NCBI RefSeq assembly: GCF_013177315.1
Contig: NZ_CP053661.1
Coordinates: 620,001 to 684,000 of the forward strand
DNA: 64,000 nucleotides
Direction of reading: 5' to 3'
Source: Thermoleptolyngbya sichuanensis A183
Lineage (GTDB): Bacteria; Cyanobacteriota; Cyanobacteriia; Elainellales; Elainellaceae
The first letter of the stretch is position 1; each line of letters starts with the position of its first letter. The position numbers and the translations under genes were made by a program. The notes beneath the pieces are model-generated. The model had not been told where the DNA came from, made no database searches, and saw nothing but the letters and a program-made list of their open reading frames with translations. Shown here in pieces: positions 40,528 to 44,160 of this stretch.

Positions 40528-40746
40528 ATGGCAGTTGAAAAAGTGAATTCTTCCTCTAGCTTGGCAGAAGTGGTCGATCGCATCCTGGACAAAGGGATCG
40601 TGGTTGATGCTTGGGTTCGCGTGTCTTTGGTGGGTATCGAACTGCTGGCGGTCGAAGCCCGCGTGGTGATCGCCTCCGTCGAAACCTACCTGAAGTACGC
40701 CGAAGCCGTGGGTCTGACCACCCAAGCCGCCGTCCCCGCTGCCTAG
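40528..40746 (+). CDS. gvpA: Gas vesicle structural protein GvpA
   Basis: A 72-residue rib protein that assembles the gas-vesicle shell. The sequence [20 protein letters not shown] (residues about 9-28), then [20 protein letters not shown], is the highly conserved helix-strand-strand-helix core. It is first in the cluster gvpA-gvpC-gvpN-gvpJ and separated by 147 bases from gvpC, so strong expression of gvpA alone with read-through is possible, as is common in cyanobacteria. Only one gvpA copy is present here, unlike species with tandem copies. Confidence 0.96.
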
Positions 40747-40893: not shown

Positions 40894-42153
40894 GTGGTTG
40901 CTCTGAAAGACCAATGGGAGGCCGGGAGGCAGCAGCGCCAACAAGCGGTTGAGCATCTGCTGGACACCTTTCGCCACCTGCGTCAGACCGTTTCTGCCCA
41001 ACTTCGTCGCGATCGCGCTGAGTTTCACCAACAGCTTCAGCAGGTGACTCAGGCCCAGCTTGCCGACCTCGCTCAGCGGCGCCAGCTTCAGGCTGCAGAG
41101 CAAATGGCGCAGTTGGCTGCGTTTCGACAACAGTTGCAGACGCAAACCGCTCAATTTCTCGACATTACCGCCGTAGAGCGATCGCTCTTGTCGCAGCAGA
41201 TTTTCCAAGAGCTAGACCAGTTTCATCACGAGCTCCGCGAATCGGTCGCCGCGCTGCGGGCCATCCATCAGCAAGACCTGGGCGCACTGGCGACAGATGT
41301 AGCCATGCTGCGGGCCGAAGCACGGGCAGACTTGCAATCAATGCACGCTGAGCGGGTAGCAACATTGACCGAATTTGTCGAAACCCTGCAAGCGGATGTG
41401 CAGCAATATTTGGGTGATCTGGCGCAGGAACGTCAGGAGCGGGCCCAGGACGTGCAAGCCTTGCTGAACGAAAGCCGTGCCAAGCGCCGATCCGAATCCG
41501 CAGATCTGATGCAGCGGTTGGGCATATTTCGGGCTGAGTTGCGCCAGTTTCGGGCCCAGCTGCAGCAGCAAGTTTGGGGCAAATCCGCCGCCGCAACTCC
41601 CGCAGCCCCGGCCGCATCGGCCGCCTCAGCAAAGCCCGCTGTCAAATCGATTCCCCCGGTAACGCCTGCTGCGGCAACGCCTGCGCCCGCTCCGACCGCA
41701 AAAGCATCTGCCGCCCGCCCGCGCACGGTGGCCCGCCTCAAATCGTCGCCTGCCAAGTCAGCTAAACTACCTGCGAGTAGACCGCCCGCCCGTGGTTTCA
41801 AGCCCTCGGCGGCCCCCGTGGCCGAACCCGTCGCCTCCGTCGCGGTTGACAGTCAGCCTGCTGTGCCAGCACTCGTGCCAGTAGCGCCTGTGCCAGTAGC
41901 GCCCGTGCCAGTGGTGACGGCTGCATCGGATGTCGCTACTCGCAACGGTAGCCAGTTCCCTGCAAGGGATGCAGTTTCTCTGGAACAGGCCACCTATGAC
42001 TATGTGAAGTCGTCCAACGGGGCCAAGCTGATGGACATTGAATCTGCCCTCGGCATGAACCGATTCCAGGCGGTCGATACGCTGCGATCGCTCATCAAGC
42101 AAGGGCTGATCGTGCAGCGCGATCGCCTCTACCTGGCGCAAGATCAAGCCTGA
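40894..42153 (+). CDS. gvpC: Gas vesicle protein GvpC with extra C-terminal winged-helix-like domain
   Basis: 419 aa from a GTG start at 40894; GGAGG lies seven bases in front, and [20 protein letters not shown] is the familiar cyanobacterial opening. The frame is open to 40813, but the upstream codons lack such support. Residues about 10-225 form a long helix with degenerate 33-residue-type repeats ([40 protein letters not shown]), which in GvpC clamp the outside of the GvpA shell. Residues about 230-355 are an Ala/Pro/Val linker. Residues about 360-419 form a compact domain ([38 protein letters not shown]) resembling a winged helix and clearly similar to the end of GvpN. Classical GvpC proteins are about 160-200 residues and lack it. 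Confidence 0.8.
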
Positions 42154-42220
42154 CTCCCAGCCCCTCAGCGAGCCTATTTCATCGCCCTTTTCATATTTTC
42201 ATATCAGAGGAAAGCCACCC

Positions 42221-43507
42221 GTGACTACCGTTCTTCGTGCCAGCCCCCGCCGATTTGTCAGTACGCCCGCGGTCGAACGGATCGCCACCCGCGCCTTGCG
42301 CTATTTGCAATCGGGCTTTTCTGTCCATCTGCGCGGCCCGGCGGGCACGGGCAAAACCACCTTGGCGCTGCACTTGGCAGACATGATTGCGCGACCGATC
42401 ATGCTGCTGTTTGGTGACGATGAGTTCAAAACCTCTGACCTGATTGGCAACCAGTCTGGCTATACCCGCAAAAAAGTTGTGGACAACTTCATCCACAGCG
42501 TGGTGAAGGTAGAAGACGAACTCCGGCAGAACTGGGTGGATGCCCGCCTGACGCTGGCCTGCCGGGAAGGATTTACGCTGGTCTATGACGAGTTCAACCG
42601 ATCGCGCCCAGAGGTCAACAACGTGCTGCTGTCGGCGCTGGAGGAAAAGTTGCTGGTGTTGCCGCCTAGCCACAACCGCACGGAATACATCCGCGTGCAT
42701 CCCCAGTTTCGCGCCATTTTTACCTCAAATCCAGAGGAGTATTGCGGCGTTCACGCGACGCAGGACGCGCTGCTGGATCGCCTAGTGACGATCAACATGC
42801 CGGAGCCGGATGAACTGACGCAGCAGGAAATCGCGGTGCAGAAAACGGGCATCGATCGCGAAAGCGCCAGCATCATCGTGCAACTGGTGCGGATGTTTCG
42901 TACCAAGACGGGCGCAGAAACCGCGTCGGGGCTGCGGTCTTGCCTGATTTTGGCGAAGATCTGCCAGGAGCATGAAATTATTGCCACGCCAGAAAACGCG
43001 GAGTTTCGCGACATTTGCCAGGACGTGCTGCTGTCTCGCGCGGGGCGATCGCTCTCCGAAGCCACCCAAATCCTCTGGGATACTTTCAACGAAATGATTC
43101 GGTTGAATACGGATGCTGCCCGCTCCTCTGTCGATCTGCGCGTCACTGAGGTTGAGCTAGAATCCCAACCAACTCCCCAGCCAGCCCCGCAAGCGGCGAT
43201 CGCCCCCCAACCCGAAGCCCAAGTCCGGCTGCCGCTCAACACCCTGCCCCTCTCCTCCACTGACGCAGCGGCAGACGAACCCGAAGAAGAGCCTGAGTCT
43301 CCTGCGGTTCCCTACGAGCGCGACATCTTCGAGTATCTCCAGCGCCATCCCGACGTGCGCCCCTCGGAAATCGAAACCGCCCTCGGCATCACCCGCTTCC
43401 AGACCATCAACGCCCTCAACGCCCTGCGCGACAAGGGTCTAGTCACCAATCGAGGCGGCGCTGGTCGGGCCAATACCTATCGCGTCTGCGAGGGAGAACG
43501 CGCTTAG
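42221..43507 (+). CDS. gvpN: Gas vesicle AAA+ ATPase GvpN with C-terminal winged-helix-like domain
   Basis: 428 aa from a GTG start at 42221 (AGAGGAAAG lies 11-19 bases before). GvpN is a MoxR-type AAA+ ATPase that enlarges gas vesicles. Walker [10 protein letters not shown] is at residues about 40-48, Walker [10 protein letters not shown] near 120, and sensor region [14 protein letters not shown] near 165. After an acidic, Pro-rich linker (about 305-360) comes a domain ([44 protein letters not shown]) homologous to the GvpC C-terminus. Sixty-seven bases after gvpC; a MITE-like element separates it from gvpJ. Confidence 0.92.
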
Positions 43508-43554
43508 CTCAGAGTTTGGGTTAGGAATTGCACCGTTGGATCAATCCCCCTTGG

Positions 43555-43715
43555 AGGATGTTTGAAAAGTCCTACTGTTTGTAGCAAAGCGTGCAAGATC
43601 CCCCTAAATCTCCCTTAACAAGGGGGACCTTAAGGCGGTTTCCCCCCTTGTTAAGGGGGGCTAGGGGGGATCTCTGAGTGCTTAACATTACAGGCGATAC
43701 CTTTTCAAACACCCC
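43555..43715. mobile_element. MITE-like element, family 1, copy 2, inside the gvp cluster
   Basis: 161 bp, nearly identical to 14334-14495. Ends are AGGATGTTTGAAAAG and CTTTTCAAACACCCC; the interior inverted repeat is CCCTTAACAAGGGGG type. Flanking bases (CTTGG, CTGAA) do not form a clear target duplication. It lies between gvpN and gvpJ and its strong hairpin could reduce transcription into gvpJ. Confidence 0.8.
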
Positions 43716-43824
43716 CTGAATGCTCCCTAAATAACTCCCTGAATCACTGCCTGAATACGGGAGACTGTCGATCCAAACCTGACCCCTTGCCGACACCTGC
43801 CCCTTTCCCTTCCAACCCCCAACT

Positions 43825-44160
43825 ATGCCCTACTCAACCGCTCAACCAACCCGCCCCGTTCCTACTGTTACCCAAGGCTCGACGCTGGCAGATGTGCTAG
43901 AGCGCGTGCTGGACAAAGGCATCGTGATTGCAGGCGACATCTCAGTTTCCGTGGGTTCTACGGAACTGCTCAGCATTCGCATTCGCCTGCTGATTTCCTC
44001 GGTGGATAAGGCAAAGGAAATTGGCATCAACTGGTGGGAGAGCGATCCGTTCCTCAGCAGCCAGTCGCAAAAACTGCTGGAAACGAATCAGCAGCTCGAA
44101 GCCCGGATTGCGAGCTTGGAGTCTGAACTGCGGTCGCTCCGGTCTGCCAGCACAGTCTAG
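43825..44160 (+). CDS. gvpJ: Gas vesicle protein GvpJ
   Basis: A 111-residue GvpA-family minor protein thought to help nucleate vesicles. The core STLADVLERVLDKGIVIAGD (residues about 19-38), then ISVSVGSTELLSIRIRLLIS, matches GvpA/J. The C-terminal coiled-coil helix (about 78-108, LLETNQQLEARIASLESEL) distinguishes GvpJ from GvpA. It is the last gvp gene in the window: the next gene, msrP, is on the opposite strand 52 bases away. The usual following genes gvpK, gvpF/L, gvpG and gvpV/W are not here. Confidence 0.9.
   Translation: MPYSTAQPTRPVPTVTQGSTLADVLERVLDKGIVIAGDISVSVGSTELLSIRIRLLISSVDKAKEIGINWWESDPFLSSQSQKLLETNQQLEARIASLESELRSLRSASTV

Follow-up and report, generated by a model that had tools for sequence, protein, structure and literature searches.

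Results

Organization of the gvpA-gvpC-gvpN locus

The window, i.e., the whole stretch of 64,000 nucleotides of Thermoleptolyngbya sichuanensis A183 DNA analyzed here, contains a series of gas-vesicle genes on the plus strand. The gene of the shell protein GvpA (40528..40746, 72 amino acids) matched Pfam PF00741 (2.7e-16) and NCBIfam NF006874 (137 bits, cut-off of 100). It is followed by gvpC (40894..42153, 419 amino acids) and gvpN (42221..43507, 428 amino acids), both with a GTG start. The position of the former between gvpA and gvpN (starts at 40528, 40894, and 42221) agrees with its identity as gvpC, and the latter is assigned by its score of 395 bits with TIGR02640, over the equivalog cut-off of 266.8. 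The next gvp gene downstream of gvpN is a gvpJ-like gene of the GvpA family (43825..44160, plus strand; PF00741, 1.3e-15), whose best NCBIfam model was that of the halo GvpJ (61.8 bits, under the cut-off of 125). The intergenic stretch downstream of gvpN (43550-43723) contains a palindromic CCCCCTTAACAAGGGGG-like sequence with matches in Kovacikia and Nostoc plasmids and is probably a dispersed repeat. Further gvp genes of the same genome, which we name GvpK-like, GvpF-like, and GvpG-like from their sequences and general knowledge, are located ~141 kb off (L091:5356-7195:+, about 805-807 kb). In this distant cluster, the GvpK-like protein is fused to a GvpA-like domain with a PF00741 match; a similar K-A fusion has been described in A. 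flos-aquae (PMC10903477).

GvpC consists of a helical repeat region closing in an 11-residue motif (40894..41580), an Ala/Pro-rich linker delimited by composition (41581..41979; 37 Ala and 25 Pro among the 126 residues taken as linker), and a putative winged helix (41980..42138). The latter includes a third helix of 13 residues in the place of the DNA recognition helix (42061..42099), whose limits were taken from the AlphaFold2 model together with the conservation in 95 GvpC domains, and a short wing with a QRDRxY motif (42109..42138), delimited likewise by model and conservation. The Pfam search gave no PF01304 match for the window GvpC up to an E value of 1, and its helical region was connected by BLASTP to a classical GvpC with 33-residue repeats (L061, five PF01304 repeats; 41% over 74 amino acids, E value of 3e-9). 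The GvpC of L086, which bears the same winged helix, scored 20.3 bits with PF01304, just under the cut-off of 21. In GvpN, the AAA+ core (amino acids 12-273, 42254..43039, TIGR02640 match) is followed by the core end and a Pro/Glu/Ala-rich linker, judged by composition (43040..43315), and by a putative winged helix (43316..43486), the third helix of which spans 13 residues (43394..43432; limits from the AlphaFold2 model and conservation). The low-complexity linkers originally noted before both tails are present.

Sequence similarity of the two tails

The original prediction was that the ends of GvpC and GvpN can be aligned without gaps while the two proteins are otherwise unrelated, and both parts were upheld. 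Between the GvpC tail (last 61 residues, 41968-42150) and the GvpN tail (last 68 residues, 43301-43504), BLASTP aligned 51 residues gaplessly with 17 identical and 31 positive positions (E value of 6e-12). The local score of 87 compares with a mean of 20.2, a standard deviation of 3.7, and a maximum of 40 in 5000 shuffles; without the tails, the two proteins scored 47, which is within the shuffled range (top of 50 shuffles, 62). A profile of 14 GvpC tails matched a profile of 26 GvpN tails with a probability of 99.8% and an E value of 1.6e-30. At the level of sequence, common ancestry of the two tails is shown here. When the domain model was searched against the genome of the window, GvpC (2.1e-26) and GvpN (2.1e-20) were found, and the next match had an E value of 0.46.

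No gas-vesicle model in Pfam or NCBIfam covers the tail of GvpC or that of GvpN, the latter searched as part of the whole protein. The MarR_2 model (cut-off of 27) gave 29.7 bits with GvpN as a whole protein, 25.6 bits with GvpN in the genome search, and 14.8 bits with the GvpC tail. A sequence search of the PDB with the GvpN tail returned 14 matches up to an E value of 10, the best at 0.023.

Predicted fold

The two tails were modeled separately by AlphaFold2, and both adopted an H-b-H-H-E-E arrangement, three helices followed by a β-hairpin wing (pLDDT of 92.4 and pTM of 0.77 for GvpC; pLDDT of 87.6 and pTM of 0.74 for GvpN). The winged-helix-like fold proposed from the sequence thus holds as a prediction, and according to the models the two tails are the same winged helix. 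Among the 50 VIA-align matches listed for each domain, the Z scores were 9.7-11.8 and the rmsd values 0.9-2.9, with 55-68 residues aligned. These matches include MecR2, MarR, ArsR-type, and Zalpha domains, and also ScpB, ESCRT-II, and RPA32C, in which the fold serves protein contacts. Foldseek alone found three chains for the GvpN domain and none for the GvpC domain at an E value of ≤0.001; its first row for the GvpC domain was the O-methyltransferase 3mcz (E value of 0.0034), whose winged helix we take to be a dimerization domain. The winged helices of MarR_2, TrmB, and ArsR share the fold and a weak sequence similarity with the domains described here, which differ in ending two gas-vesicle proteins and in having mostly V-D/N-A at positions 36-38 in the third helix.

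Distribution in cyanobacteria

Genome surveys showed that the domain is widespread across cyanobacteria. Across 386 genomes sampled evenly from the phylum, GvpN over the equivalog cut-off was present in 55 (57 copies), and 26 of the 57 copies bear the winged helix. The gvpN-adjacent GvpC bears it in 14 cases, and four more genomes (G123, G276, G332, and G374) have a second domain match 5 to 6 kb away from gvpN, which in G123 is a GvpC-like protein of 242 amino acids. In a sample of 388 genomes of the class (domain match at E ≤ 1e-4, gvpN at E ≤ 1e-60), the domain was found in 120 genomes and gvpN in 171. gvpN occurs in 117 of the 120 domain-bearing genomes versus 54 of the 268 genomes without the domain. 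The remaining three (G114, G181, and G581) had weak matches (3e-5 to 5e-5) to regulator-like proteins, which by their sequences look like ordinary SufR- and MarR-like regulators. Because of this association, the regulator-like nature of the three weak matches, and the restriction of the matches in the genome of the window to GvpC and GvpN, the domain is gas-vesicle-specific.

The GvpC profile was also used to scan 84,980 species genomes by one conserved peptide pattern, a procedure that finds close relatives only, and gave 56 loci, all with cyanobacterial titles. gvpN lies in the same locus in 55 of them (L284 ends before gvpN), and 46 of the 56 have the domain on both proteins, including those of Leptolyngbya sp. 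PCC 6406, Nodosilinea nodulosa PCC 7104, and Planktothrix sp. PCC 11201. Two of the other nine loci with gvpN, L301 and L316, are split among several reading frames. In L301 (1861-3187, plus strand), a GvpN without the domain is closely followed by a 51-amino-acid ORF bearing it, probably because of a recent frame break or an assembly error. In L197:2344-4599:+ and L198:2286-4571:+, the linker that precedes the GvpN winged helix reaches ~400 residues and abounds in Glu, Ala, Pro, and Val. No domain match was found in four non-cyanobacterial GvpN proteins (Methylosinus, Spartinivicinus, Octadecabacter, and Halobacterium) or in GvpC and GvpO of Halobacterium.

Within the phylum sample, a GvpC copy always came with a GvpN copy (the 14 adjacent cases and the four away from gvpN). 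This rule failed in the wider sample, in which the domain is confined to GvpC in G435 and in 12 genomes from the window's own family.

Origin and loss

The GvpN-core tree was built from 148 cores, with four distant non-cyanobacterial GvpNs as the root, and has many weak forks. Its earliest cyanobacterial branches (L049/L050, L052-L054, and L036/L088) have neither copy. The next clade (136 rows, support of 86) has both copies in most of its basal rows, and its later forks are weak. Within the limits of this weakly resolved tree, a joint origin of the GvpC and GvpN copies followed by repeated loss is suggested; given the clade support of 86 and the weak subsequent forks, the joint origin is the simplest reading rather than a proof. 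In the tree of the domain itself (194 rows, 60 columns), the C/N label changes six times, compared with 64.8 times in shuffles. The well-supported branches force only one change, and the tree is compatible with a single split.

The states of both proteins are known in 140 GvpN rows, of which 85 have both copies, 13 GvpC only, 11 GvpN only, and 31 neither; these counts are not frequencies, as many rows were chosen as domain carriers, and in some rows the absence on GvpC refers to the gvp locus and not to the whole genome. The domain is on both proteins in 85 of the 109 carrier rows. The genome of L073, a GvpN-only row, has a second gvp cluster with both copies. The independent-pairs tests of joint presence comprised 3 and 7 pairs (median p of 0.5), too few to have power.

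Repeated loss of the domain is shown here. A Nostocales-type clade of 26 rows has the domain on GvpC in none, and its GvpN lost the domain at least five times. In N. sphaeroides, the one named Nostoc examined, GvpN keeps the domain. The losses of the GvpN copy amount to 5 in 2.24 branch-length units in this clade versus 10 in 18.24 units elsewhere, an approximately four-fold difference (p of 0.018), in a comparison that uses a distant outgroup and weak forks and counts L043, L046, and L051 (non-Nostocales rows that are also without the GvpC copy) as "elsewhere." Among 44 domain-less copies, remnants were detected 3' of gvpN in L064 (5.5e-9), L070 (2.3e-7), and L065 (1.9e-4); those in L085, L084, and L074 were weak (8e-4 to 0.01). 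We take the rows of the loss clade and of the remnant set to be of the Anabaena/Dolichospermum and Microcystis kind, on the basis of their sequences and general knowledge.

The GvpCs of two early-branching lineages (L049:5896-6948:-, L050:5896-6933:-, L052:3837-4958:+, L053:5819-6982:-, and L054:3985-4968:+) have another conserved C-terminal stretch of ~50 residues after a linker (in L053, ...VNDRDTVRDLLAQGANTLKVDPSDILNTLLQMA...). These C-terminal ends had no match to the winged-helix domain, and Pfam gave no match for the L053 GvpC and none in the C-terminal stretch of the L049 GvpC. The GvpNs of the same five loci have a short tail only.

Conservation of the third helix and wing

Conservation was counted in 95 GvpC copies, many of them closely related, and 100 GvpN copies. 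Nearly invariant positions of the GvpC domain are Arg32, Gln34, and Arg40, and Asp52, Arg53, and Tyr55 in the wing; Arg32 is present in 94, Gln34 in 88, Val36 in 91, and Tyr55 in 94 of the 95 copies. Arg32 is also present in 95 of the 100 GvpN copies. Positions 36-38 are V-D-A in the GvpC copies and mostly V-N/D-A in the GvpN copies. Position 36 is Val or Ile in 93/95 GvpC and 83/100 GvpN copies, and position 37 is acidic in 92/95 (Asp in 86, Glu in 6) and 43/100, respectively. In the genome of the window, four regulators could be aligned with the third helix (L240, L241, L242, and L259), and these have RR, SK, SH, and SQ at positions 36-37; the MarR-like match of G581 (L228), aligned by eye, has Ser-Asp. 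Net charge was considered as a sign of DNA binding and discarded as uninformative: that of the domain is about -1, and those of six control sequences overlap with it (-1 to +3).

The co-variation of the two copies was analyzed in 74 pairs after removing the distances of the GvpN core and of the GvpC helical region, and no correlation was found (partial r of 0.05, permutation p of 0.21).

Discussion

Comparison with known gas-vesicle proteins

The domain had been thought undescribed for classical GvpC and the best-studied GvpN. This stands in that no gas-vesicle family model covers the tails, but the similarity of the ends is already known from Planktothrix: in the GvpC40 of benthic strains, a 28-residue C-terminal stretch matches Planktothrix GvpN at 64% identity, and the C terminus matches 60 residues of a Geitlerinema GvpC at 78% similarity (Sci Rep 2017, PMC5259702). 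In its accessible text, that paper names no fold, no function, and no spread beyond Planktothrix and Geitlerinema. Here, the domain was found on both GvpC and GvpN of PCC 11201 (L319) and P. paucivesiculata PCC 9631 (L315). Searches of the open-access literature, mostly at the level of listings, did not find an earlier account of the fold, its breadth, its gas-vesicle specificity, the lineage losses, or the haloarchaeal parallel described below. In the open-access literature, which excludes most subscription journals and bioRxiv preprints, neither a gas-vesicle GvpC with a winged helix nor a GvpN with MarR was found, and the matches for GvpN with helix-turn-helix were unrelated as judged by title and abstract. 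Here, known proteins have a new domain arrangement, which does not amount to a new kind of system.

Planktothrix is a natural experiment on the GvpC domain. The calculated GvpC mass of L055, 39.5 kDa, equals the published value of three non-planktic species, and that of L056, 28.6 kDa, equals the value reported for P. agardhii PCC 7805 and for one P. mougeotii strain (PMC5259702); from this we infer that both loci are from Planktothrix. The longer GvpC has the winged helix, the shorter one does not, and both clusters keep the GvpN copy. As far as the accessible text of the same paper reports, the abundance and size of aerotopes are alike in benthic PCC 11201 and planktic PCC 7805; therefore, any effect of the domain may be subtle.

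Classical cyanobacterial GvpC (33-residue repeats, PF01304) has a homologous helical region and a similar closing motif and ends there, whereas the window GvpC adds the linker and the winged helix. Haloarchaeal GvpC (PF05465) likewise consists of repeats, a linker, and a small C-terminal domain; the latter also belongs to a DNA-binding family but is a Ros/MucR-type zinc finger unrelated to the winged helix. The C terminus of Halobacterium GvpC (L211:1667-2815:+) matched PF05443 with 28.3 bits (cut-off of 25.4), adding a second example of a GvpC that ends in a domain from a DNA-binding family. The Halobacterium GvpN examined does not match the winged-helix domain. The C-terminal domain of Halobacterium GvpC is reported to associate with itself and with GvpN and GvpO, and pull-downs with GvpN or GvpO yielded the GvpC monomer, not the dimer (accessible text of PMC9372576). 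The parallel between cyanobacterial and haloarchaeal GvpC is functional, not ancestral.

Proposed mechanism and alternatives

Here, we propose a mechanism based on the homology and predicted fold of the two copies, their restriction to gas-vesicle genomes, the trees, the conservation, and the haloarchaeal parallel. A gas-vesicle-specific winged helix would have been captured once in cyanobacteria, copied between the neighbors gvpC and gvpN, in each case at the end of a flexible linker, and repurposed to bind protein instead of DNA. GvpC, whose helical repeats clamp it along the shell ribs, would display winged helices on the vesicle surface that bind one another. GvpN would dock its AAA+ ring on the GvpC coat through its own winged helix, and this copy would compete with the GvpC-GvpC contacts where new GvpA goes in. 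Protein binding, GvpC and GvpN as the partners, and the competition step are inferred. The GvpC-GvpC and GvpN-GvpC contacts are favored because of the third-helix residues and the behavior of Halobacterium GvpC. The faster loss of the GvpN copy per branch length in the Nostocales-type clade, where GvpC is without the domain (p of 0.018), also counts for this mechanism. The pair is not obligatory (13 GvpC only and 11 GvpN only among 140 rows) and the distances of the two copies are not correlated (partial r of 0.05), which count against it. Taken as a whole, the mechanism is put forward tentatively and falls somewhat short of being probable.

The same observations bear on a related explanation, in which both copies bind the same third partner, for instance a cell structure, a protein of the GvpF/L type, GvpJ, or the outer face of GvpA; the coat and the ATPase would then be recruited together with no mutual contact via the domain. 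The genomes with the domain on one protein only, which occur in both directions, the third helix conserved alike in both copies (Arg32 in 94/95 and 95/100), and the lack of co-variation are in line with a shared partner. A shared partner would not predict the faster loss of the GvpN copy in the clade without the GvpC copy, and we regard this explanation as possible though doubtful.

DNA binding by the domains, envisaged originally beside a GvpN-GvpC tether and a common partner, could tether vesicles to the nucleoid or feed the vesicle state back on transcription. The fold is indeed that of MarR/ArsR regulators (VIA-align Z scores of 9.7-11.8), and GvpN exceeds the MarR_2 cut-off as a whole protein, though not in the genome search. 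Protein binding is favored because the third helix is conserved and yet mostly acidic where the four regulators of the same genome, polar at both positions 36 and 37, have Arg, Lys, His, or Gln. The aliphatic residue at position 36 in most copies, the very short GvpC wing, and the protein contacts made by the same fold in ScpB, ESCRT-II, and RPA32C also speak against DNA. As Asp also occupies position 37 in the MarR-like protein of G581, the acidic residue alone is insufficient, and the third-helix residues would favor a protein partner over DNA without deciding the matter. On this balance, DNA binding appears improbable. It is very improbable that the domain is a dispensable leftover with little present function, kept by inertia: the many losses, the decayed remnants after several truncated gvpN genes, and the like aerotopes of one Planktothrix strain with the GvpC domain and one without it (PMC5259702, accessible text) would agree with this, but the 95 GvpC copies, closely related as many of them are, share near-invariant positions that would hardly have been kept in the absence of selection.

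Implications for gas-vesicle assembly

Clusters of the Anabaena flos-aquae type are the usual sources of engineered gas vesicles, and the losses described here suggest that they are reduced versions. The domain, seemingly lost in the best-studied types, may bring the ATPase and the coat together. Returning to the mechanism proposed above, its broadest form would be a winged-helix docking code ancestral to the gas vesicles of most cyanobacteria, by which the ATPase docks on the GvpC coat and locally opens it at the growth seam; the code would have been lost in the textbook types, and haloarchaea would have arrived at it independently with a zinc finger. This generalization is speculative and rather unlikely; if true, the mechanism would have been missed because the textbook types lost the domain. 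The elongation of gas vesicles requires GvpN, whose mechanism a review of 2024 regards as an open challenge (PMC10903477, accessible text), and a module common to GvpN and the outer coat is a concrete, mutable handle on this mechanism.
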